From NCBI RefSeq assembly GCF_023715655.1, contig NZ_JAMBON010000012.1:1-64000 (forward strand): a DNA stretch of 64,000 nt, read 5' to 3'. The DNA is from Oceanobacillus luteolus. GTDB lineage: Bacteria > Bacillota > Bacilli > Bacillales > Amphibacillaceae. Positions 35,807-47,919 of the stretch are shown here, piece after piece. How positions within the stretch are numbered: the stretch's first letter is position 1; each line of letters begins with the position of its first letter. The position numbers and the translations under genes were made by a program. The notes under the pieces are model-generated. The model was not told the origin of the DNA. It made no database searches and saw only the letters and a program-made list of their open reading frames with translations.

Positions 35807-36730
35807 CTATACCTCTACATCTTCACCAATAATCCGTACTTCACGTTCAAGAGTGACTCCAAATTTATCTTTCACTGTTGCTTGGACATGTTTGATCAGG
35901 GAGATATACTCTGTTGCCGTTGCATCATCAATATTTACGATAAAGCCAGCATGCTTCTTGGAAACTTGTGCACCACCAATTTGCACTCCTTGCAAGTTGC
36001 TGTCCTGAATCAGCTTCCCTGCAAAATATCCCGGTGGACGTTTGAACACACTTCCGCAAGATGGATATTCCAATGGTTGTTTGGATTCCCTTTTTTCCGT
36101 CAAATCATCCATGACAGCCTTTATGTCCTCATATTCACCTTGCTTCAAATCAAACGTAGCTTCCAATACAATATAACCGTTATCCGGAATGTTGCTTGTA
36201 CGGTAATCAAGATCTAATTCATCTGCACTCAGCGTGATAAGCTCGCCATCTTTCGTGCAGACAAGTGTACTTCTGAGAACATCTTTAATTTCACCGCCGT
36301 AAGCACCGGCATTCATATACAACGCCCCGCCTACAGAACCAGGAATACCACAAGCAAATTCTAAACCGGTAAGCCGTTCATTCAATGCAAATCTGGATGC
36401 ATCAATAATTCTTGCGCCACTTTCCGCAATGACACTATCTCCATCTGCTTTTATCGCAGCCAACTTTTGCAGATTCATTACGATTCCGCGAATTCCGCCA
36501 TCACGGACGATTAAATTCGAACCATTGCCGAGCAAAGTAAATTCTACATCTTCCTGATTTGCCAGCAAAACGATTTCCTGCACTTCCTGATAAGTTGAAG
36601 GAGTCACATAGTAATCGGCTTTACCGCCAAGTCGTGTGTACGTATGCTCTTTTAGAGGTTCGTCTTTCAATACATTTTCCTCCGCAGTAATCTGCGTTAG
36701 TTTATTATAAATTGGGTCATTCATTGTCAA
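35807..36730 (-). CDS. murB: UDP-N-acetylenolpyruvoylglucosamine reductase
   Basis: A 307-residue FAD enzyme reducing UDP-GlcNAc-enolpyruvate to UDP-MurNAc, the second committed step of peptidoglycan synthesis. FAD-binding motifs [13 protein letters not shown] and NAGAYGGEI and the catalytic Ser region [18 protein letters not shown] are present. The TTG at 36730 lies eight bases after AAAGGATG; an ATG two codons later is a little far from that site. Single gene, not in the mur operon, as in several Bacillaceae. Confidence 0.92.
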
Positions 36731-36813
36731 CGTATATCATCCTTTAATAAAAAATTCCATCCATTATTCACCATGGAATATCATTTCATTTTAGCTTGCT
36801 TCTATAGTTTAAG

Positions 36814-37626
36814 TTATTGTGCTAAATCTTGCCACAAAAAACGATAAATCAATTGATCTACCCCTGCATGTTCATGAAGTGCGCTATGTCCTAAAGTCTC
36901 ATCTTCCAACATCACTTCTTTCAGTTGGCTTGATGGGACAATTTTTCTGAGTTGGGCTACACTTTCAGGAACCGCAACAGCGTCGCCTGTACTTCCAATA
37001 CTAAGTACTTTCACATGTTCTGGGAAGGTGGACGTATGGAGCATTCTTAATGCAAGCGAGTCCATCTTCAAATCCTCTGCTCCTCTATCCGTATGTGTAA
37101 TAAAATAATTCGGATCAAAGATACCAGCGAACGGACTGCCGATGGTCACAAGTTTCTCTACACGGGGGTATGCCTTACCATCATATTCCATGATGTACTT
37201 TAAGGACACTATCCCACCCATTGAATGTCCTACGAGATTCACCGTGTCTATTTGATACGTACTTTTAAGATTGTGCAGCACATTCGCAAGATAATTTGTC
37301 GTCTCTGCAAAACTGGTACGATTATTTTCAAAAACGACTTGAATGAATAACGGTTTACCATTACTTCGGGCCAAATGTTGTGTATGAAGGGAACCATCAG
37401 CGTTCACAAAATAAGTCATCCCTACTACCCCATATTTATACTCATTTTCAAAACGTTGGAGCATATTGCCGAAAGAATTGACGGTTCCTTTATATCCATG
37501 TACAAAGACAGTCGGTATTCCTACATATCCTTCTGACTTTGTATTTTTCGGCATCAATGAATAACCCCCCAGTCCGAGTAAAAGTAATAATGCAAAAAGA
37601 CCTGTGATGATATTTCCTTTATTCAT
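36814..37626 (-). CDS. secreted alpha/beta hydrolase, DUF915 type
   Basis: A 270-residue protein with an N-terminal hydrophobic signal or anchor (about 5-25). The catalytic Ser is in VNLVGHSMGGIVSLKY, the oxyanion start in VFVHGYKGT, and the Asp and His candidates lie in STGDAVAV and GHSALHEHAG. This is the DUF915/lipase-like group of Bacillaceae and Staphylococcaceae; substrate unknown. The ATG at 37626 follows AAGGTGAG. It stands between murB and hisJ without an obvious operon link. Confidence 0.82.
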   Translation of the reverse strand: MNKGNIITGLFALLLLLGLGGYSLMPKNTKSEGYVGIPTVFVHGYKGTVNSFGNMLQRFENEYKYGVVGMTYFVNADGSLHTQHLARSNGKPLFIQVVFENNRTSFAETTNYLANVLHNLKSTYQIDTVNLVGHSMGGIVSLKYIMEYDGKAYPRVEKLVTIGSPFAGIFDPNYFITHTDRGAEDLKMDSLALRMLHTSTFPEHVKVLSIGSTGDAVAVPESVAQLRKIVPSSQLKEVMLEDETLGHSALHEHAGVDQLIYRFLWQDLAQ

Positions 37627-37777
37627 TCAAATTCACTCACCTTGCTTGTTAACCAATATGTAATGGAAGAATATTAGCCACTGCCAAATAGCAGTGGCCT
37701 ATTTTCTTTTTTATTATAGCATAGCGAGACGGTACTCATCCCTGCTTCATGTGAAATTCGTAAAAAAGTCACCTTTA

Positions 37778-38572
37778 TTATAAATTATCAATGTAATGAA
37801 ACTCTGGCTTACCATCCGTAAATGTACATATATATTTAAAACCCGCTTCCTTCAAATGAGCGATGGCAAGTGGAAATTCAACTGCAAGTGTGTCCACCAC
37901 ATGAGAATCTGAACCTAATGTGATGATCTCTCCCCCACAATCTTTATACAACTTCAATATATCAAGACTTGGCATACCAGATTCCAAACCATAACGATAG
38001 CCAGAAGTATTCACTTCAATCCCCTTTCCTGCTGGGATGATTTCAGCAAATATTTCCTTAATAATATGATGGAAGTTATTTTTGCTTTTTTCCTTCGTAT
38101 AGCGTTTCACTAAATCAAGATGGCCAAGTACACTGAATTCCTTAAAATCCCTTACACATGTCAACAGCTCCGTATAGTAAATTTCGTATGCCTCATCCAC
38201 TGTTTTTCCTTCAAAGAACTCACCGAAATGCAAATCCTTTTTTTCCGTCGCATGTAAGGAACAAATGACAAAATCGAACTGTTCTTGTTCCATCATATCT
38301 TCATATCTCTGGAGGATATGTGGCTGAAGCCCAATCTCCACTCCTTTTTTAATTCGGATTTGATTACGGTATCTCTCTTGGACCTCTTTAATTTTTTTAT
38401 CATAATCTTTTAGATCAAATTCAAATATCCAATCTTTATCCGGGTAATCATAGTCAATATGGTCAGTAAAACAGATTTCCTTTAATCCCAATTCAATTGC
38501 TCTTTCAACTGTTTTCTCCATCGGCGTTTCACAATCGGCCGAGAAATTACTGTGCATATGGTAATCAAACAT
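37778..38572 (-). CDS. hisJ: histidinol-phosphatase, PHP family
   Basis: A 264-residue metal-dependent phosphatase releasing histidinol from histidinol phosphate. PHP motifs DYHMHSNFSADCETP, CFTDHIDYDY and LGSDSHVVD supply the metal ligands. AAGGAGAG precedes the ATG. Divergent from hisZ with a 173-bp shared promoter region. This is the expected phosphatase in Bacillaceae, complementing the operon on the other side. Confidence 0.92.
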   Translation of the reverse strand: MFDYHMHSNFSADCETPMEKTVERAIELGLKEICFTDHIDYDYPDKDWIFEFDLKDYDKKIKEVQERYRNQIRIKKGVEIGLQPHILQRYEDMMEQEQFDFVICSLHATEKKDLHFGEFFEGKTVDEAYEIYYTELLTCVRDFKEFSVLGHLDLVKRYTKEKSKNNFHHIIKEIFAEIIPAGKGIEVNTSGYRYGLESGMPSLDILKLYKDCGGEIITLGSDSHVVDTLAVEFPLAIAHLKEAGFKYICTFTDGKPEFHYIDNL

Positions 38573-38642
38573 GCTGCTCTCTCCTTTGTCTTATCTTTCG
38601 GCTATTAATCTAGCTTTTCATAAAATTTCGTGAAGAAATCAT

Positions 38643-38671
38643 TTGACTTTATAATCTATCATAATTATTAT
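38643..38671 (+). promoter_or_regulatory. promoter of the histidine operon
   Basis: TTGACT (38643-38648) and TATTAT (38666-38671) with 17-bp spacing, about 75 bp before hisZ. I saw no T-box or leader peptide in the remaining leader. Confidence 0.45.
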
Positions 38672-38745
38672 AATACTATATAACTTTAATTAGATGAAGT
38701 GATAAAGTGATAAATCAATAAAGTTTTTTGGAGGGAGAATAAGAA

Positions 38746-39969
38746 ATGCGGAACGGTATCGAGAAATCCAGTAATCGAGCGGTCATGAATTACAAAATTA
38801 AGAACCAGCTCATCCATAAATTGAAAAGCCGTTTTTCAACATATGGTTATGAACAAGTACATACCCCAACTTTTGAAGATTATGATATGTATAATTCCAT
38901 CCAGCAAACAGTGAATAAAGATGAAATGATTAAAGTAATTGATAGATCTGGGAAAGTCCTCGTGCTTCGGCCAGATGGAACGATTCCGATGACACGTTTG
39001 ACAGTTACTGACCGGGAAATCAATGGAAGTGAGCAAAGGCTCTTCTATGTTTTTAATGTATACCGCCATCCGAATGGTGAAAGCACAGAAAAAGAAAGTA
39101 CCCAGGCTGGTGTGGAATTGTTCGGAAATAAAAAGCCGGAAGCCGATGCTGAAGTTATCGCACTCGCCGTTCATACGTTGAAAGAGATTGGGTTCAACAA
39201 TTTTAAAATCGAAATTGGTCACGCAGGGTTTTTCAAGGAATTGATTGAACAGGCAAACTTATCACCGCAAGACCTGCAACAACTTCAGGAACTGATTCAA
39301 TCCAAAAATATGGTTGAGATGGAGCCCTTTTTAACTAAGCTTGATTTACCTTCTGAAATACAAGAAGCACTTTATGCCATTCCACTTCTTTACGGCAGTC
39401 CGTCAGCAGTATTGGAAGAGACAAAGTCTATTATCCAAAATGAACGGATGCAACATATCCTGGATAATTTGCTGGCTGTCATAGAGGTTCTTGAAGATTA
39501 TGATGTGCTGGACTTTATTACGTTGAATCTTGGGCTAATCAATAACATGGATTATTACACGGATGTTATTTTCCAAGGCTTCGTCGAAAATATCGGAAAA
39601 CCTGTCCTAATGGGCGGACGTTATGATCAATTGGGCAAACAATTCGGTAAAGATATGCCTGCCATTGGGTTTGCCTATGAAGTTGATGACTTACTTGAAG
39701 CAATAAATCAACATAAACTTACCGATGTTAGAAACGAACCTGCTCCATTAACACTTTACTATGTAGCGAAACAAAGGCGTAAAGCATTGGAAGCAGCTCA
39801 ATCTTTAAGAGAGCAAGAGTATAGAGTGATTACAAAACAACTCGAAATTGGAACTGCTGAAGCTGGAATCCTTTTTCTAGAAGATAAAAATGTACTAATA
39901 GATGAGACGGAACAGACTTTCGAAACAACGGAAGAATTGATTCGATTAGTTGAAAAAGGGGGGGCCTAA
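38746..39969 (+). CDS. hisZ: ATP phosphoribosyltransferase regulatory subunit
   Basis: A 407-residue paralogue of histidyl-tRNA synthetase that lacks tRNA charging and activates the short HisG. HisRS-like motifs are visible (TPTFEDYDMY, LRPDGTIPMTR, GGRYDQLGKQFG). GGAGGG precedes the ATG. First gene of the operon and next to the short hisG it needs. Confidence 0.9.
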   Translation: MRNGIEKSSNRAVMNYKIKNQLIHKLKSRFSTYGYEQVHTPTFEDYDMYNSIQQTVNKDEMIKVIDRSGKVLVLRPDGTIPMTRLTVTDREINGSEQRLFYVFNVYRHPNGESTEKESTQAGVELFGNKKPEADAEVIALAVHTLKEIGFNNFKIEIGHAGFFKELIEQANLSPQDLQQLQELIQSKNMVEMEPFLTKLDLPSEIQEALYAIPLLYGSPSAVLEETKSIIQNERMQHILDNLLAVIEVLEDYDVLDFITLNLGLINNMDYYTDVIFQGFVENIGKPVLMGGRYDQLGKQFGKDMPAIGFAYEVDDLLEAINQHKLTDVRNEPAPLTLYYVAKQRRKALEAAQSLREQEYRVITKQLEIGTAEAGILFLEDKNVLIDETEQTFETTEELIRLVEKGGA

Positions 39970-39970
39970 A

Positions 39971-40597
39971 ATGGAGAAGCTTACGATTGCATTAGCGAAA
40001 GGACGACCAGCTAAACATACCATTGAAACGTTGGAGAAAGCCGGCATGCATTTTATTGACTTTCACGCAGATAGCCGAAAACTTGTTTTCTTTAATGAAG
40101 AACGAACGATTAAATTAATCTTCGTAAAAGCTGTCGACGTTCCGACTTATGTAGAAAGAGGGGCAGCAGACATAGGCATCGTCGGAAAAGATAATATTCT
40201 TGAATCCCGAGCCGATGTCTATGAGCTGCTCGATTTGAAAATTGGTAAATGTAAATTCTCTGTTGCCGGATTTCCTGATTACACGGCAGATTCCAACCAA
40301 ACGTTAACCGTTGCCACAAAGTATCCTAACGTAGCGAAGAAGTATTTTTCAAATGTTGGCCAGTCCATTGAAATCGTCAAATTGAATGGTTCTGTTGAAT
40401 TGGCGCCACTCATCGGGCTTGCCGATGTCATCGTCGATATTGTGGAAACCGGTAGTACATTGAAGGAAAACGGCTTGGTGGTTTTGGAAGATATCGAGTA
40501 CATTAGTACCCGCCTCATTGTAAATAAAGCTAGTTTTGCAACTAAATCAACGGAAGTAAAAGACTTCATTGACCAACTAAAAAATGCATTGGAGTGA
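39971..40597 (+). CDS. hisG: ATP phosphoribosyltransferase, short form
   Basis: A 208-residue catalytic subunit for the first step of histidine synthesis. Motifs LAKGRPAKHTIETLEKAG, ADIGIVGKDNILE and DVIVDIVETGSTLKENGL are present; there is no C-terminal regulatory domain, so HisZ is needed. Start at ATG 39971, one base after the hisZ stop, with a G6 run as ribosome binding site. Confidence 0.93.
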   Translation: MEKLTIALAKGRPAKHTIETLEKAGMHFIDFHADSRKLVFFNEERTIKLIFVKAVDVPTYVERGAADIGIVGKDNILESRADVYELLDLKIGKCKFSVAGFPDYTADSNQTLTVATKYPNVAKKYFSNVGQSIEIVKLNGSVELAPLIGLADVIVDIVETGSTLKENGLVVLEDIEYISTRLIVNKASFATKSTEVKDFIDQLKNALE

Positions 40598-40602
40598 CCA
40601 GC

Positions 40603-41889
40603 ATGAGAATAATTACTGCAGAAGAATATATCGCAGAATGGAATAATTCTACCAGCGCAGAAGAAAATGACGCTGCCCTGGACGATGCAGTTCTCGGGAT
40701 TATCCGTAAAGTACGAGAAAAGCAGGATAAAGCACTATATGAATATACGAAACAATTCGACGGGGTGACCCTCGATGATTTAGTTGTTTCTGAAAAAGAA
40801 TTTCGTGAGGCAAAGCAATTCACAACTCCAGAATTCCTTACCGCTTTGAAGCAAGCAGCAAAAAATATCCGTGCCTATCATAACGAACAGAAGGAGAAAT
40901 CTTGGCTAGTTGAACAAGACAATGGAATAATGCTTGGCCAAAAGATTACCCCTATTGATCGTGTTGGTGTCTATGTTCCGGGCGGAAAAGCCGGCTACCC
41001 TTCCACCGTTTTAATGACAGTGATCCCTGCGCAACTGGCTGGAGTAAAGGAGATTGTAATTACTACCCCGCCTGGTAAAGATGGAAAAGTAAACCCTTAT
41101 GTGCTGCTTGCCGCTGAGCTTTTAGGAATCAAAAAGATTTATAAGATAGGCGGAGCACAAGCGATCGCAGCGCTTGCCTACGGAACAGAAACGGTAAAAA
41201 AGGTAGATAAAATTGTCGGTCCCGGCAATGCTTATGTTGCTCGAGCCAAAAAGTGGGTATATGGCACAGTCGGCATCGATATGATTGCTGGTCCAAGTGA
41301 GATTTGTATTATTGCTGACGAGAAAGCAAACCCACGATATGTAGCTGCTGACCTTTTATCTCAAGCGGAGCATGATGAATCTGCCCGAGCGATTTGTATT
41401 ACTACGAGCGAACAACTTGCAGACTCTATCCAGGAAGAGATCGTTTTACAGACTAGTAGACTGGAACGAAAGGAAATCATTGATGCTTCCATCGAGGCAA
41501 ACGGCAGAATAATCATCGTAGACAGCCTGGAGTCAGCAGCTCAAGTGGCCTATATTATCGCAGCGGAGCATCTGGAATTGATGGTCGAGCATCCAACGGA
41601 GCTTTTACCTCAGATTAAACATGCTGGAGCAATTTTCCTAGGAAGCTATTCACCTGAACCGTTGGGAGATTACTTTGCCGGGCCAAACCATACGCTGCCA
41701 ACAAGTGGTACAGCAAGGTTCGCCTCAGGGCTTGGTGTCTATGACTTCTTGAAGAAATCAACGATCATCAGTTACCCGAGACAAGCATTGGAAGATGTCA
41801 GCGATCAAATTATTACACTAGCAAACGTAGAAGGCTTGACTGCCCACGCAAATGCTATTCAAATCAGAAAGGATGATCAGGATGCGTAG
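40603..41889 (+). CDS. hisD: histidinol dehydrogenase
   Basis: A 428-residue zinc, NAD-dependent enzyme that carries out the last two oxidations to histidine. Motifs RVGVYVPGGKAGYPSTVLM, KIVGPGNAYV, AGPSEICIIAD, QAEHDESA and GPNHTLPTSGTARF are typical. ATG at 40603 is preceded by GGAG. It overlaps hisB by eight bases. Confidence 0.95.
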   Translation: MRIITAEEYIAEWNNSTSAEENDAALDDAVLGIIRKVREKQDKALYEYTKQFDGVTLDDLVVSEKEFREAKQFTTPEFLTALKQAAKNIRAYHNEQKEKSWLVEQDNGIMLGQKITPIDRVGVYVPGGKAGYPSTVLMTVIPAQLAGVKEIVITTPPGKDGKVNPYVLLAAELLGIKKIYKIGGAQAIAALAYGTETVKKVDKIVGPGNAYVARAKKWVYGTVGIDMIAGPSEICIIADEKANPRYVAADLLSQAEHDESARAICITTSEQLADSIQEEIVLQTSRLERKEIIDASIEANGRIIIVDSLESAAQVAYIIAAEHLELMVEHPTELLPQIKHAGAIFLGSYSPEPLGDYFAGPNHTLPTSGTARFASGLGVYDFLKKSTIISYPRQALEDVSDQIITLANVEGLTAHANAIQIRKDDQDA

Positions 41890-42466
41890 TTATTCAATTG
41901 CCAGAGATACTGCGGAAACAAAGATCAAGTTAGACCTTAATATAGATGGTACCGGACAAGGTGATTTTAATACAGGTATCGGTTTTTTCGATCATATGTT
42001 AACACTGATGACAAAGCATGGCTTGTTTGACTTAAAGGTGAAATGTGACGGCGACCTCGAGGTGGATCAACATCACTCTGTCGAAGATATTGGAATTGCT
42101 CTCGGTCAAGCTTTCCGGGAAGCTTTAGGAACAAAAGAAGGCATTACGAGATATGCATCGGTCACTTCTCCGATGGATGAGGCGTTGGTCAACGTATCCC
42201 TCGATATTAGCGGCCGCTCTTTCCTTGTATATAATGTGGAAGGATTAAAAGACAAAGTCGGTGATTTCGATACTGAGCTTGTCGAAGAGTTCTTCCAAGC
42301 GTTTGCAAGCAATGCAAAAATCACTCTTCACATTAATCTCGCATATGGCAGAAACAGCCATCATATGATTGAAGCAATTTTTAAAGGCTTCGGAAGAGCA
42401 TTAGACCAAGCAACAATAATTAATTCAAGAATCAAAGGTGTTCCGTCTACAAAAGGCGTCCTATAA
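41882..42466 (+). CDS. hisB: imidazoleglycerol-phosphate dehydratase
   Basis: A 194-residue manganese enzyme. Metal motifs HHSVEDIGIALGQAF and HHMIEAIFKGFGRAL are both present, with no fused phosphatase domain. The ATG at 41882 overlaps the hisD stop. In related operons hisH follows; here the next gene begins 19 bp later and is hisA. Confidence 0.95.
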   Translation: MRSYSIARDTAETKIKLDLNIDGTGQGDFNTGIGFFDHMLTLMTKHGLFDLKVKCDGDLEVDQHHSVEDIGIALGQAFREALGTKEGITRYASVTSPMDEALVNVSLDISGRSFLVYNVEGLKDKVGDFDTELVEEFFQAFASNAKITLHINLAYGRNSHHMIEAIFKGFGRALDQATIINSRIKGVPSTKGVL

Positions 42467-42485
42467 ATTTACAGGAGATGATTTC

Positions 42486-43964
42486 ATGATTTTATTCCCG
42501 GCAATTGATATTCTTGGAGGTAAATGCGTACGTCTAACCCAAGGAGATTATAATAAAGAAACGATTTACAATGATAACCCTGTGGAAGTCGCGAAAGAAT
42601 GGGAGAGACAAGGTGCGGAGTATATCCATATTGTTGATTTGGATGGTGCCAAAACAGGAAAGTCGATTAATCAAGGTCTGATTGCAGAGATTGCGCAAAC
42701 TGTATCCATCCCCATTCAGGTTGGTGGTGGCATCCGTTCGATAGAAGTAATTGAAAATTACTTGAACCGGGAAGTGAGCCGAGTCATCATTGGTACAGCC
42801 GCCATTCAAAACCCAGAATTTTTGCGTGAAGCAGTGGAAAAATTCGGCGAAAGAATTGCAGTTTCAATTGATGCCCGTAATGGTTTTGTTGCAACAGACG
42901 GCTGGACTAAAGAAAGCACAGTCAAGGCACTTGATCTCGTGAAAGATTTGGAAGAAGTCGGTGTTCAAACAATTGTTTACACCGATATTTTGAAAGATGG
43001 CATGCTGCAAGGACCAAATTTTGAGGAGCTCCAAGCGGTCAATCAAGCAACAACGATTGATGTCATTGCTTCCGGCGGCGTGACAACAGAAGAAGATGTT
43101 AAGAGGTTAAGGGAACAAAAGATGTACGGTGCAATTATTGGAAAAGCACTATACGACGGCACATTAAATTTCAAGAACCTGATGGATGGTGAGAAGATGG
43201 AAAAGAAGAATATCATCGCTTGTCTCGACGTCAAAAATGGCCGAGTCGTGAAAGGACAACAGTTTCAAAACATTCAAGAGGTCGCAGATCCAGTAGAGCT
43301 TGCAAAGCAATATAATAAAGATCAAGTAGATGAACTTGTTCTATATGACATTACAGCATCTGTAGAGAAGAGAAATGTTTTTATCGACCTTGTCGAGAAC
43401 ATCGCAAAAGTAATCCAAGTACCTTTTACCGTAGGTGGTGGAATTAGTTCCATTGCAGATATTGAAAAAGTATTACAAGCCGGTGCTGACAAAGTTTCAA
43501 TCAACAGTGCCGCCATCGAAAACCCAGATCTCATTAGTGAAGCTTCACAGAAATACGGGAGTGAAACTATTGTATTTGCATTAGATGCTAAAGAGGTTGC
43601 ACCTGGGAAGTGGAATGTCTTTTCCAAAGGAGGACAGGTGGATACCGGCATTGATGCAATTGAATGGGCAATCAAAGGAGTAACACTTGGAGCAGGTGAA
43701 GTCGTCGTGAATGCCATAGACGATGACGGTGCGAAGTCGGGTTATAATATAGCATTAACCAAGAAAATCGCCGAAGCTGTAGATGTACCGGTAATCGCAA
43801 GCGGTGGAGCTGGAAAACCCGAACACTTTAAAGAAGCACTGACAGAGGGCAGTGCAGCTGGGGCCCTTGCAGCATCTGTATTCCACTTTGGCGAAATTAA
43901 AATACCTGCATTGAAAGAATATCTTGCAAATGAAAATGTTTTGGTCAGGGGGATAAAAGAATGA
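42486..43964 (+). CDS. hisAF: HisA-HisF fusion: ProFAR isomerase plus imidazole-glycerol-phosphate cyclase
   Basis: One frame of 492 codons. Residues 1-237 are HisA, with Asp8 (PAID), Asp129 (SIDARNG) and TDILKDGML. Residues 238-492 are HisF, with Asp11 and Asp130 in HisF numbering (ACLDVK, FALDAK). There is no linker; the junction reads DGEK-MEKKN, and its Met codon (43197) has GGTGAG upstream, so HisF could also start internally. Relative to the T. maritima HisF sequence as I remember it, gate residue Arg5 is Asn, Gln123 is Glu, LRDSGDP is IQEVADP and LLTSID is VVNAID, while Glu46, Lys99 and Glu167 are kept. The glutaminase hisH is missing from the operon. The TIM-barrel pair is clear; whether the HisF half works normally is open. 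Confidence 0.92.
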
Positions 43965-44602
43965 CAATCCAACTAGAAGATTTAGCATTTGATGAAAACG
44001 GGCTCCTGCCTGCTGTCGTCCAAGATGCAGCAAGCGGTACAGTATTGACCCTTGCTTATATGAATAAAGAGTCATTGGAAAAAACAATTGAAACAGGTGA
44101 AACCTGGTTTTATTCCCGTTCCAGACAGTCCTTATGGAACAAAGGGGAAACGTCAGGTAATAAACAGCTGGTAAAGCGTATCAACTATGACTGTGATAAA
44201 GATGCTCTACTTGTCCAAGTCGAGCCCCTTGGCCCTGCCTGCCATACCGGTGAAGTGACTTGCTTTAATGAAACGCTCGACCAAAAAGAGTTACCATCTC
44301 TGGATATCGTAACGCAAGTAATTGACAAAATTAAAGACAGACGGGAAAACCCTGTCCCAGGAGCATATACGACGTATTTGTTTGAAAAAGGTATCGACAA
44401 AATGTTGAAGAAGGTTGGCGAGGAAACGAGCGAGGTTATCATTGCTGCAAAAAATGAAGATAAAGAGGAGCTGACAGCCGAAATCTCCGATTTGTTCTAT
44501 CACCTTCTTGTCGTGATGGAGACGTCAGGAGTAACTCTAAATGAAATTAAAGCGGAATTATTAAAACGCCATCTGACAAAGGAAGGTCAAAACCGTGAGT
44601 AA
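43961..44602 (+). CDS. hisIE: bifunctional phosphoribosyl-AMP cyclohydrolase/phosphoribosyl-ATP pyrophosphatase
   Basis: A 213-residue two-domain enzyme for steps two and three. The N-terminal cyclohydrolase (about 1-110) has [20 protein letters not shown] and zinc Cys in [11 protein letters not shown] and [12 protein letters not shown]; the C-terminal pyrophosphatase (about 115-210) has [16 protein letters not shown] and [10 protein letters not shown]. It overlaps the hisAF stop (ATGA) and hisC by eight bases. Confidence 0.93.
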
Positions 44603-45656
44603 ATTTTGGAGCAGTGCAGTAAAACGTAGTGATCCATATATTCCAGGGGAACAGCTGAATGATCCGAAAATCATTAAGCTAAATACGAACGAGAACCCAT
44701 ATCCTCCCTCCCCTCTGGTTTTAGATGCGATAAAGAAGGAAGCAGATCAGTCTCTCAGACTCTATCCAAGTCCAACAGTGGATGAGCTGAGAAATGAGAT
44801 CGCTGACTATTATGGATTGGGTAAGGACAGCGTATTTATCGGAAACGGTTCAGATGAAGTGCTTGCCTTTTCGTTTATGGCTTTCTTTGAATCCGGGAGG
44901 AAAATCCGTTACCCAGAAGTCTCTTATAGCTTTTACCCGGTTTATGCCAAACTCTTTAACATACCAGTAGAGGAAGTTCCTTTACAAGCGGACTTCTCTA
45001 TTCAGGCAAGTGATTTTCACAGTTCAGAAGGCGGCGTTATTTTCCCAAATCCGAACGCACCAACTAGCCTCTATTTACAGCTCGAGGCAATTGAAGATAT
45101 TCTTCAGCATAATCGGGATCGGGTTGTTATTGTTGATGAAGCATATATTGATTTTGCCGAGGAATCTGCAGTCAAGCTGCTTCATAAATATGATAACTTA
45201 CTCGTTATTCAAACGATGTCCAAATCCCGTTCTCTTGCTGGACTTCGCTTAGGATTTGCTCTTGGCTCACCTGAATTAATTGAGGGGCTCATCAGGATAA
45301 AAGATTCCTTTAATTCTTATACAATTGATCGCCTAGCTATTGCTGGCGGTATTGCAGCAATGAAAGATAAAGTTTACTTTGAAGCAACAAGGGAGAAAAT
45401 TAAAAGGACAAGGATTTGGGCCACTCAGGAATTGAGAAAACGTGGATTTAACGTGCTTCCCTCTCAAGCAAACTTCCTATTTGCAACTCATCCAGACAAG
45501 GAAGCTTCCAGCCTGTATGAACAGTTAAAAGAAAATAAGATCTTAGTGAGATACTTTAATAAACCACTCATTAACGAATATTTACGAATTACAATTGGTA
45601 CGGAAGTAGAGATGGACACGTTTTTCCAGGTGCTCGATAAACTTCTGAAAAAATAA
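44595..45656 (+). CDS. hisC: histidinol-phosphate aminotransferase
   Basis: A 353-residue PLP enzyme of fold type [12 protein letters not shown] near the N-terminus, [15 protein letters not shown] and the PLP Lys in [16 protein letters not shown] are in place, and RITIGT near the C-terminus binds the substrate carboxylate. GTG start at 44595 inside the end of hisIE. Last gene of the operon. Confidence 0.93.
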
Positions 45657-45659
45657 AAA

Positions 45660-45693
45660 TAGGATGACGCACAACTTTCTGTGCGTCATCCTA
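45660..45693. terminator. bidirectional terminator after hisC
   Basis: TAGGATGACGCACA / TGTGCGTCATCCTA, a 13- to 14-bp stem; the A-run on its left gives a strong T-tract for the minus-strand lipoprotein gene. Confidence 0.8.
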
Positions 45694-45701
45694 CTGTTGT
45701 C

Positions 45702-46406
45702 TTAAATCAACGTCTCAATTTCAGCTTCTTCTTTTAATTCTTCGATACGAGCTTCCAACATTTCTCTTTGCTTCTGCTCCATGACGCTTTGGCGGATCAG
45801 TTCTTCATATTCCTGAAGTTCGCCCACTTCTTCACTCTGTTCTTTCATCTGGTTATATTGTTCTTCCACTTCTTCATCGGTCACTTCAACAGTAAATTCA
45901 GACTCAATATAACGGACCATCAACAAGTCATCCATCAATTGTTCTCTGAACTGTTCTTCAGATAAATCATATTCTTCAAGCATGGTTTGAATAGCTTCTT
46001 CTCCATTTGTCTCAATGATATTGTCAATCTCTTCTTGAGCATCTTCTTCCGTCACTTCAATTCCACTATCGAGTGCATCCTGACGAATCAATTCCTGCTC
46101 AGTTAGAATCAGAACTGTTTCATCCTTCAACATGTCCAAATCACTTACATCTTGTCCATACATATGAAGCATTGTTTTGTATTGTTTATAAACATTATTA
46201 TATTTAGCTCCGTTGATCTCAGTACCATTAATATTCAAGACGACGGAGTCATTATCAACCTTTTCCTCATCAGAAATCTCCACAGTTTCTGTTGCTTGCT
46301 CTTCTGTATCCTTATTGTCATCCGCTTTCTCTGTGTCATCATTATTACATGCAGCTAATAGCAACGTTAAAAATAATGCTGTAATAAGCAGGATTCTTTT
46401 CTTCAT
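45702..46406 (-). CDS. SurA N-terminal-domain lipoprotein (chaperone-like)
   Basis: A 234-residue lipoprotein (LLLAACNN lipobox, Cys about residue 20) with an acidic linker and a helical SurA-N/trigger-factor-like domain (about 55-230, INGTEINGAKYNNVYKQY). There is no parvulin proline-isomerase domain, so it would act as a chaperone holdase outside the membrane, if at all. It resembles PrsA-related proteins with the catalytic domain missing. The ATG follows AGGAGG. Confidence 0.8.
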   Translation of the reverse strand: MKKRILLITALFLTLLLAACNNDDTEKADDNKDTEEQATETVEISDEEKVDNDSVVLNINGTEINGAKYNNVYKQYKTMLHMYGQDVSDLDMLKDETVLILTEQELIRQDALDSGIEVTEEDAQEEIDNIIETNGEEAIQTMLEEYDLSEEQFREQLMDDLLMVRYIESEFTVEVTDEEVEEQYNQMKEQSEEVGELQEYEELIRQSVMEQKQREMLEARIEELKEEAEIETLI

Positions 46407-46409
46407 TTA

Positions 46410-46863
46410 ATTATTACCTCCTAATTGGTCTTACTCCAGTAAAACATAAAACACCCTAATAATTCAATAACGAAAGTGTGATTAAGGCTAAAGTCATATA
46501 CAATGATTCGTTCATCCTTCACTTTTCTTAAACACAAGGGAAAAACACTATAAATTATAATGACCTTAGGGTAACTTGTTGACCATGCAATTGGAAGCAC
46601 TGGGAATTGATGAGGCACTTTCTGCAAGAAGGTTTATGAGGGCTGGTTACAGGGGAATACTAGGGTAGAATCACTTCAAAACTGAAGAGCCGGGACAAAA
46701 GTTCTTATCTTTATTAATGAACATGAAGTTTTAACAAAATACTTGGGTATTTGCTTTATTCATTTCATTAAACGCCTTTTTTCGATAAGATCCTTTATGT
46801 CCCATACTCTGGTCAAATTAGAAAATGTAATACAGTCTGATTCCAATAAATATTTGTTCTTTG
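46410..46863. other. gene-free stretch
   Basis: No open frame of interest beside the inverted-end element at 46687-46809. The part near 46410-46600 should carry the promoter for the SurA-like gene. Confidence 0.4.
46687..46809. mobile_element. possible MITE-like remnant with imperfect inverted ends
   Basis: GAGCCGGGACAAAAG...TCTTATC at 46687-46709 faces an imperfect inverted copy at 46784-46809 (read in reverse GAGTATGGGACATAAAG...TCTTATC), enclosing about 75 bp. Ends of the GGGACA type recall IS1182-group elements of Bacillales. No transposase, no clear target duplication. Confidence 0.4.
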
Positions 46864-47919
46864 TTACAAAGTCTTTCTCCTTAAAATGATGACTAAGAAT
46901 GTTATACCACCAACCATTTCGATAATAACAGAAACGACACCTTGAGCATTAAATACATGATACATGATAAAATATGCACCTGATAAAATTAAGAAACCGG
47001 ATGCAAGAGCCATCGGAAATATGTATCGATGATCATAAGTTTGTGCCAACTGATAACTTAGAGTCGCAACTAAAAACCCAAAGAAAGTTAGTGGTCCAAC
47101 TAAAGCAGTTGATACTGACATTAATATGGAAACTAAAACAAGAACATAAATGACACTAAATCGATAGTTTACTCCTAAAGAACTAGCGATATCTTTACCA
47201 AGTGACATTACATTTAATCGTTTTGAATAAACAAGGAGCAGTAATGCCACAATGATTACAATTGGTATTGCAATATGAAAGTATTCAGGGTCTGCATTAT
47301 TGACAGAACCGAATAATCTCGCCTGTAAAACATCAAACTCAGACGGTGCAAGTAGTTTTCGCATAAAAGATGATAATGACCGAAGTCCGGTACCAATAAT
47401 AATTCCGACTAGAAGCATTAACTGGAGATTCCCATACTTTCCTGAAAGTAACCAACCATAAAGTACCAAACAGAGCACAATCATAATAATAACTTGGGTT
47501 AAAAATGGTCCAGTGCCGCTAAATCCGATAAATACACTGGCACCAAAGTAAAACATTGTACTAGTTTGAATTGTTGAATACAGTGCTTCAAATCCTAATA
47601 GTGAAGGAGTTATAATCCTATTATTCGTTACTGATTGGAAAGCAACAGTCGCCAAGCTTTGGCAGATTACAGCAATAAACATTGCAGTAAGGGCATCCAA
47701 TCTTCTTTCAACAACTGGAATAAAGGAAGGGGAATCTACTGGAACCGGATTGTTATACACTAATAGTCCAAACGCAGCAAGACCACCCAAAACGATCAGT
47801 GTAATTAAAAGGATCCAATAACGCCTTTCTTCTTTCTTGGACCGAAAAGCTTTAGACGGTTTATCTTCATTAGGAAGGCTAGAATTAATTTTGACGACTT
47901 TGTTGTTTGTAGTTTCCAA
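46864..47919 (-). CDS. siderophore ABC transporter permease, YclO-like
   Basis: A 351-residue FecCD-family permease with about nine or ten membrane helices behind a charged cytoplasmic head (1-32). SLGVNYRFS and VGPLTFFGFLVATLSYQL are family motifs. It begins at a TTG (47919) with AAGGAGG about 13 bases upstream, inside the end of the preceding permease gene, so the two are coupled. With the next gene it forms a heterodimeric channel as YclN/YclO do for petrobactin. Confidence 0.88.
   Translation of the reverse strand: METTNNKVVKINSSLPNEDKPSKAFRSKKEERRYWILLITLIVLGGLAAFGLLVYNNPVPVDSPSFIPVVERRLDALTAMFIAVICQSLATVAFQSVTNNRIITPSLLGFEALYSTIQTSTMFYFGASVFIGFSGTGPFLTQVIIMIVLCLVLYGWLLSGKYGNLQLMLLVGIIIGTGLRSLSSFMRKLLAPSEFDVLQARLFGSVNNADPEYFHIAIPIVIIVALLLLVYSKRLNVMSLGKDIASSLGVNYRFSVIYVLVLVSILMSVSTALVGPLTFFGFLVATLSYQLAQTYDHRYIFPMALASGFLILSGAYFIMYHVFNAQGVVSVIIEMVGGITFLVIILRRKTL

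Follow-up and report, generated by a model that had tools for sequence, protein, structure and literature searches.

The genome of Oceanobacillus luteolus appears to encode HisA and HisF, which act at successive steps of histidine biosynthesis, in one reading frame. This raises the questions of whether the fusion is genuine, how it arose and from where its HisF takes ammonia. We analysed a window of 64,000 nucleotides (assembly GCF_023715655.1, contig NZ_JAMBON010000012.1, positions 1-64,000, forward strand). The fused hisA-hisF gene, recognised as an ORF and by family profiles, lies on the plus strand at 42486..43964, where 492 codons (42486-43961) stay open from HisA straight into HisF up to the TGA at 43962-43964. 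The HisA part (residues 1-237, 42486..43196) scored 403 bits with TIGR00007 at residues 4-231 (cut-off 229), and the HisF part (residues 238-492, 43197..43961), which begins with an internal ATG, scored 430 bits with TIGR00735 at residues 241-488 (cut-off 295; both NCBIfam models). One open frame in O. luteolus thus holds both families at full length, that is, a natural HisA-HisF fusion. A sequence-only reading of this DNA had described the single frame of 492 codons and the lack of a linker, and both descriptions held: the HisA half ends in LMDGEK, and the HisF half starts directly after it. The fused gene was the single match in the 4.0 Mb draft genome (206 contigs, 99.94% complete).

Asp8 and Asp129 of the HisA half, which we take to be the catalytic aspartates, were invariant in alignment A2. 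The HisF half keeps D11 and D130, whose catalytic role is described in the accessible text of PMC11350729. Compared with G009, taken to be O. indicireducens JCM 17251, the HisA half showed a dN/dS of 0.05 with a dS of 2.4, which is near saturation, and the HisF half showed a dN of 0.15 with saturated synonymous sites. Full-length families in both halves, together with these values, suggest that the fusion is more than chance. AlphaFold prediction of the fusion from a 10-row alignment gave two full barrels with a mean pLDDT of 84.2; the pTM was 0.58, so the predicted mutual arrangement of the two barrels is uncertain. The closest PDB matches were HisF entries. Judging from sequence comparison, the gene probably encodes a bifunctional enzyme, in which HisA would convert ProFAR to PRFAR and the joined HisF would close the imidazole ring with free ammonia, the glutaminase HisH having been lost.

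The origin of the frame could be followed in the genus sample (n = 28, O. luteolus included). hisA and hisF are separate in all 27 congeners but overlap in different frames: in each of them hisF starts before hisA has ended, and, counted from the first base of the hisF start codon, the hisA TAA begins eight bases further on. The junction of O. luteolus (43180..43207, plus strand) contains GGTGAG, the internal ATG at 43197 and, at the site of the congeners' TAA, a GAA (43205-43207) in place of the lost hisA stop. The distance between HisA codon 227 and the hisF start is 33 bases in O. luteolus, 34 in 14 congeners and 40 in G009. Since O. luteolus is thus one base shorter than 14 congeners and seven shorter than its nearest relative, and the congeners overlap out of frame, the comparison shows at the sequence level that the fusion arose by a frame change, after which the old hisA stop was altered. 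The one-base change from TAG to AAG that had been proposed earlier is not supported and was rejected, as the hisA of the congeners never stops before the hisF start and ends inside hisF at the TAA, in another frame. Flags of fusion raised at ~28% HisA identity were false, the HisA query having matched the HisF paralogue.

The same junction bears on the possibility that the genes are truly separate and were joined by one wrong base or indel in the assembly. The separate genes of all congeners and the draft state of the assembly speak for such an error, as do the TGA codons at 43180 and 43190 in the other two frames, since an upstream indel would bring a TGA into frame. However, frame 0 matches the relatives (LKFEDVLDGE) down to DGE, which leaves ~9 bases before the ATG, and beyond 43190 the two alternative frames reach a stop only after 17 and 38 codons of hisF, unlike any congener. 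The change of the hisA TAA to GAA and the fused frames in other hisH-less genomes, described below, also argue against an error, which we consider improbable, although a single miscalled base that masks a stop is conceivable.

The fused gene belongs to a his operon on the plus strand, with hisZ (38746..39969; TIGR00443), hisG (39971..40597; an ORF with its start set by eye, which as a query matches the hisG places in related loci), hisD (40594..41889; TIGR00069) and hisB (41882..42466; start by eye, NCBIfam HisB models) upstream, and hisIE (43961..44602; NF002747) and hisC (44595..45656; TIGR01141) downstream. A PHP-type histidinol phosphatase of the HisJ family (37778..38572, minus strand; TIGR01856) is divergent from the operon. 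All these neighbours of the fused gene seem intact, as judged by NCBIfam models for hisZ, D, B, IE, C and J and, for hisG, by its ORF and matches. Rfam gave nothing at the gathering score over 36000-47000, and thus no T-box was found before the operon; promoter-like and terminator-like sites occurred only at the level of shuffled sequence. The gap between hisB and hisA (42467..42485, plus strand) measures 19 bases, a place occupied by hisH (~600 bases) in, for example, genome G001.

This absence of hisH is the weightiest context of the fusion and had been overlooked in the sequence-only reading. The hisH model TIGR01855 exceeded its cut-off in 26 of the 28 genomes of the genus, the exceptions being O. 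luteolus and O. indicireducens. A HisFH holoenzyme calls for a HisH encoded in the genome, and neither the family model nor a protein query found one in the O. luteolus draft. Thirteen of the 14 hisH controls passed the cut-off; the B. subtilis control failed, indicating that the model search can miss hisH or that this control genome is odd. The protein query recovered hisH in 4/4 positive genomes. In the family sample, hisH was detected in 123/149 genomes at E 1e-30, and a match to HisA and/or HisF in 140/149 at E 1e-40. Seventeen family genomes had HisF and lacked hisH, 16 of them with HisA as well at E 1e-20 (the exception, G049, had the HisF match only); in these 17 the protein query gave either nothing or only weak matches with E over 5e-4.

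We compared the HisF residues of genomes with and without hisH, using T. maritima numbering and reading 66 of the 124 hisH-bearing genus and family genomes. We take R5 to be a gate residue and Q123 to be an interface residue that faces HisH. R5 was found in 66/66 of these sequences, Q123 and C124 each in 65/66, and D98 in 89%. D98 is placed at the HisH interface in the available portion of PMC8115485, and K99 is described as a gate residue in that of PMC10115891. In the 17 hisH-less HisF sequences, Q123 and C124 were each kept in 1/17, R5 and E46 each in 12/17 and D98 in 8/17, and D11, K19, K99, D130, E167 and D176 were each present in 17/17. The HisF of O. luteolus has N5 where its relatives have R5, and E123-T124 where hisH-bearing relatives have Q123-C124; it retains E46, D98, K99 and E167, which together with R5, Q123 and C124 are the positions nearly invariant in hisH-bearing genomes. 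Among 80 named loci, for which hisH was judged in the flank only (59 with, 21 without), R5, Q123 and C124 were each present in 58/59 loci with hisH in the flank. Those without it that carry E or D at position 123 were O. indicireducens, Pseudogracilibacillus, five Sporosarcina and a Tissierellia MAG; the other 13/21 retained both Q and C, and may have a hisH outside the flank. In the literature searched, HisF, HisH and Q123 were not found together in one paper.

These replacements also bear on whether another glutamine amidotransferase, of the PabA/TrpG type, substitutes for HisH on this HisF. In favour of such a substitution, two sequences resembling class I amidotransferases in the O. luteolus genome matched the hisH model weakly. 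However, Q123 and C124, nearly invariant with HisH, are replaced, and PMC3896937, in its accessible text, deems a replacement rather unlikely for C. glutamicum. We regard a substitute as very improbable.

The rarity of the fusion, also noted earlier, was borne out. A stop-free HisA-HisF span was found in 1/149 family genomes among the matches listed (to E ~1e-88), in 1/299 of the order sample at E 1e-130 and in 1/398 of the class sample at E 1e-105, in each case O. luteolus, with the limit that these thresholds would not reveal more diverged fusions. At E 1e-105, 8/398 genomes of the phylum sample were fused, and a ninth fusion was G979, in which the sole stop is the natural end. Frame-walking of 148 loci, some of which share a genome (O. 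luteolus included, L218-L224 left out), found only O. luteolus and G979 fused, one locus being unreadable. Related genomes with separate genes and a fused frame in this assembly alone had been named earlier as grounds against the fusion; this describes the genus, family, order and class samples, but not the distant genomes, where fused frames occur.

Seven of the nine phylum-sample fusions, O. luteolus included, have no hisH nearby (six checked genome-wide) and have lost Q123. Genome-wide searches found no hisH in the distant fusions G1054, G1092, G972, G926 and G995, nor was one seen within the 5.1 kb locus of G979; hisH was present in the fusion genomes G1095 and G801 and in three unfused genomes tested alongside. 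The distant hisH-less fusions lack a junction methionine and carry E, D or H at position 123. The other two of the nine (L218 and L220) keep hisH and Q123-C124 and have a linker of ~10 residues with an internal MLT start (MLTRR/MLTKR), which indicates that fusion does not require hisH loss. In the order of G926, the fused frame occurred in 4/10 genomes, one of them (G1176) with a partial match at a contig end, and three of these fused genes had dN/dS of 0.11-0.16. The fused proteins of f114 and f146 were 50-52% identical to each other, and 53% and 48-51% identical, respectively, to L218; being no closer to each other than to L218, they suggest separate origins.

Q123 was lost in 7/9 fused loci versus 3/44 separate same-frame loci (Fisher p 2.5e-5 with kinship uncorrected; 1.0e-4 without G979). 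A HisA tree, built quickly from 134 rows with the hisH state known for 125, showed nine changes of hisH state and six of fusion state. Loss of Q123 accompanied loss of hisH in 4.9 of 5 supported independent pairs (p 0.0625), a link that, at the level of sequence, is consistent and rests on few events. Fusion accompanied hisH loss in an average of 1.7 of 3 pairs, which is non-significant once relatedness is counted, so the association is suggestive only. Loss of R5 did so in 0.3 of 5 pairs; we rejected it as a general mark of hisH loss on this result and on the 12/17 hisH-less HisF sequences that keep the arginine, which is also present in the six other hisH-less fusions.

Whether the fused chain is the working product depends in part on the internal start at 43197. 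The stretch before this ATG pairs with the 16S tail at -11.6 kcal/mol (pairing energy alone, with an assumed anti-Shine-Dalgarno sequence). The 29 other in-frame internal ATGs of the operon were all weaker, the best reaching -7.5 kcal/mol. The 62 hisF starts of hisH-bearing relatives had a median of -11.35 kcal/mol, like 43197, and that of the nearest relative, G009, only -5.0 kcal/mol. Initiation at this ATG, giving free HisF, is therefore likely as predicted from the pairing, and fused and free HisF may coexist in O. luteolus, in agreement with the earlier suggestion that the ATG preceded by GGTGAG could yield a free HisF.

The strong Shine-Dalgarno match also fits a neutral accident: a stop would have disappeared from the closely packed overlap, the working enzyme would be free HisF, and the fused chain would be made alongside it to no benefit. 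The retained MLTRR/MLTKR start and linker of the hisH-bearing fusions point the same way. HisF-HisIE single frames (L152/L160 and L149/L163, of 469 and 462 aa) were observed in two hisH-less genomes (G043 and G108) and in 0/66 of the hisH-bearing genomes read, indicating that the absence of HisH may simply make a fusion tolerable. However, the six other fusions (L219, L221-L224 and L269) have no junction methionine, considering ATG only, and the fused form there seems to be the product. A neutral accident is possible but somewhat unlikely in our assessment.

For the bifunctional enzyme using free ammonia, we propose the following course. Neither O. luteolus nor O. indicireducens has hisH, and the gene may thus have been lost in their common ancestor; the pattern is observed, and the order of events is our proposal. 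The HisH-facing part of HisF would then have been freed, in keeping with the altered Q123, C124 and R5 and the unchanged catalytic residues, K99 and E167. The frame change in the hisA-hisF overlap, to which the comparison with congeners points, would next have chained the barrels while the old hisA TAA decayed. The fused protein is presumably made, perhaps together with free HisF from the internal ATG, given its Shine-Dalgarno match. Its HisF is proposed to use free ammonia because the lineage lost the glutaminase; the ammonia may come from the surroundings or from metabolism, as the published behaviour of HisF without HisH suggests. The accessible parts of PMC5919458 and PMC11350729 report that HisF without HisH makes IGP at high ammonium or basic pH, and that ammonium makes up for the hisH defect of a Klebsiella mutant. 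An unpublished result quoted in PMC3896937, also available in part, is that C. glutamicum can grow on minimal medium after deletion of hisH.

A more tentative extension, which we hold as a possibility well short of probable, concerns the recurrence of the fusion. In barrels of this type, HisA presumably ends and HisF presumably begins on the N-terminal side, which in HisF is presumably also where HisH binds, and chaining should therefore be easiest once HisH is gone. After hisH loss, the covalently chained HisA might take over the face that HisH occupied, where it could shield the entrance for ammonia or hand on PRFAR. Such a form would have arisen at least three times, in the O. luteolus lineage, f114 and f146, and perhaps also in G979. 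If so, these enzymes would represent, in present-day cells, the route without HisH and driven by ammonia that has been proposed for the first histidine synthesis.

Textbooks illustrate the evolution of barrel enzymes with HisA and HisF, and HisF-HisH serves as a standard model in work on allostery and ammonia channelling. Like the HisF of HisF-HisH imidazole glycerol phosphate synthase, that of O. luteolus has D11, D130, K19, D176, K99 and E167; unlike it, it has no detected hisH, has Q123-C124 and R5 replaced and carries HisA on its N terminus. Engineered HisA/HisF half-barrel chimeras join half barrels into one barrel. They also combine HisA and HisF sequence, whereas O. luteolus chains two complete barrels. 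HIS7/HisHF of eukaryotes, two delta-proteobacteria and two Archaeoglobales is likewise a natural fusion at the HisF N terminus (PMC1963479 and PMC11237513, as far as accessible), but the partner there is the glutaminase HisH, and in O. luteolus it is the preceding enzyme HisA, with HisH missing. The hisH pseudogenes of Blochmanniella, for which the authors suggest ammonia as a replacement, were the one natural hisH loss found in the literature searched (PMC12779916, accessible part); they belong to insect endosymbionts, whereas here the operons are wholly without hisH and HisF is altered to match. The semi-enzymatic route of Lazcano and Miller, cited in the available text of PMC5919458, also yields IGP from HisF and ammonia without HisH; it is an origins hypothesis, in contrast to the secondary loss seen here. 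The accessible text of PMC1963479 names five his fusions, of which its 'hisA/hisF' is the internal half-barrel elongation and not a HisA-HisF chain, and that of PMC7284861 does not include hisA in its list of seven his genes found in fusions. No report of a natural HisA-HisF chained enzyme was found in the literature searched, most subscription papers being outside its reach.

A natural HisH-free HisF would separate residues needed for HisH only, for which Q123 and C124 are candidates, from catalytic ones, and would allow the idea of an ammonia-driven histidine route to be tested in bacteria that can be cultured, among them Oceanobacillus and Sporosarcina. The HisA-HisF fusion contributes a natural enzyme in which two barrels for consecutive steps are chained.

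Several single loci deserve mention. The one hisH-bearing exception among the genomes read, G044 (L199), has E123-R124 in the HisF of its operon, carries hisH far from the his operon and has three HisA/HisF matches. Locus L265 (G1101) has S123-T124 despite hisH in the flank, counter to the general pattern. The five Sporosarcina loci (L046-L050) have E123-R124 and no hisH in the flank; Sporosarcina leads an ammonia-rich, urea-splitting life. The Tissierellia MAG (L060) has E123 and V4, and perhaps represents another hisH-less lineage.
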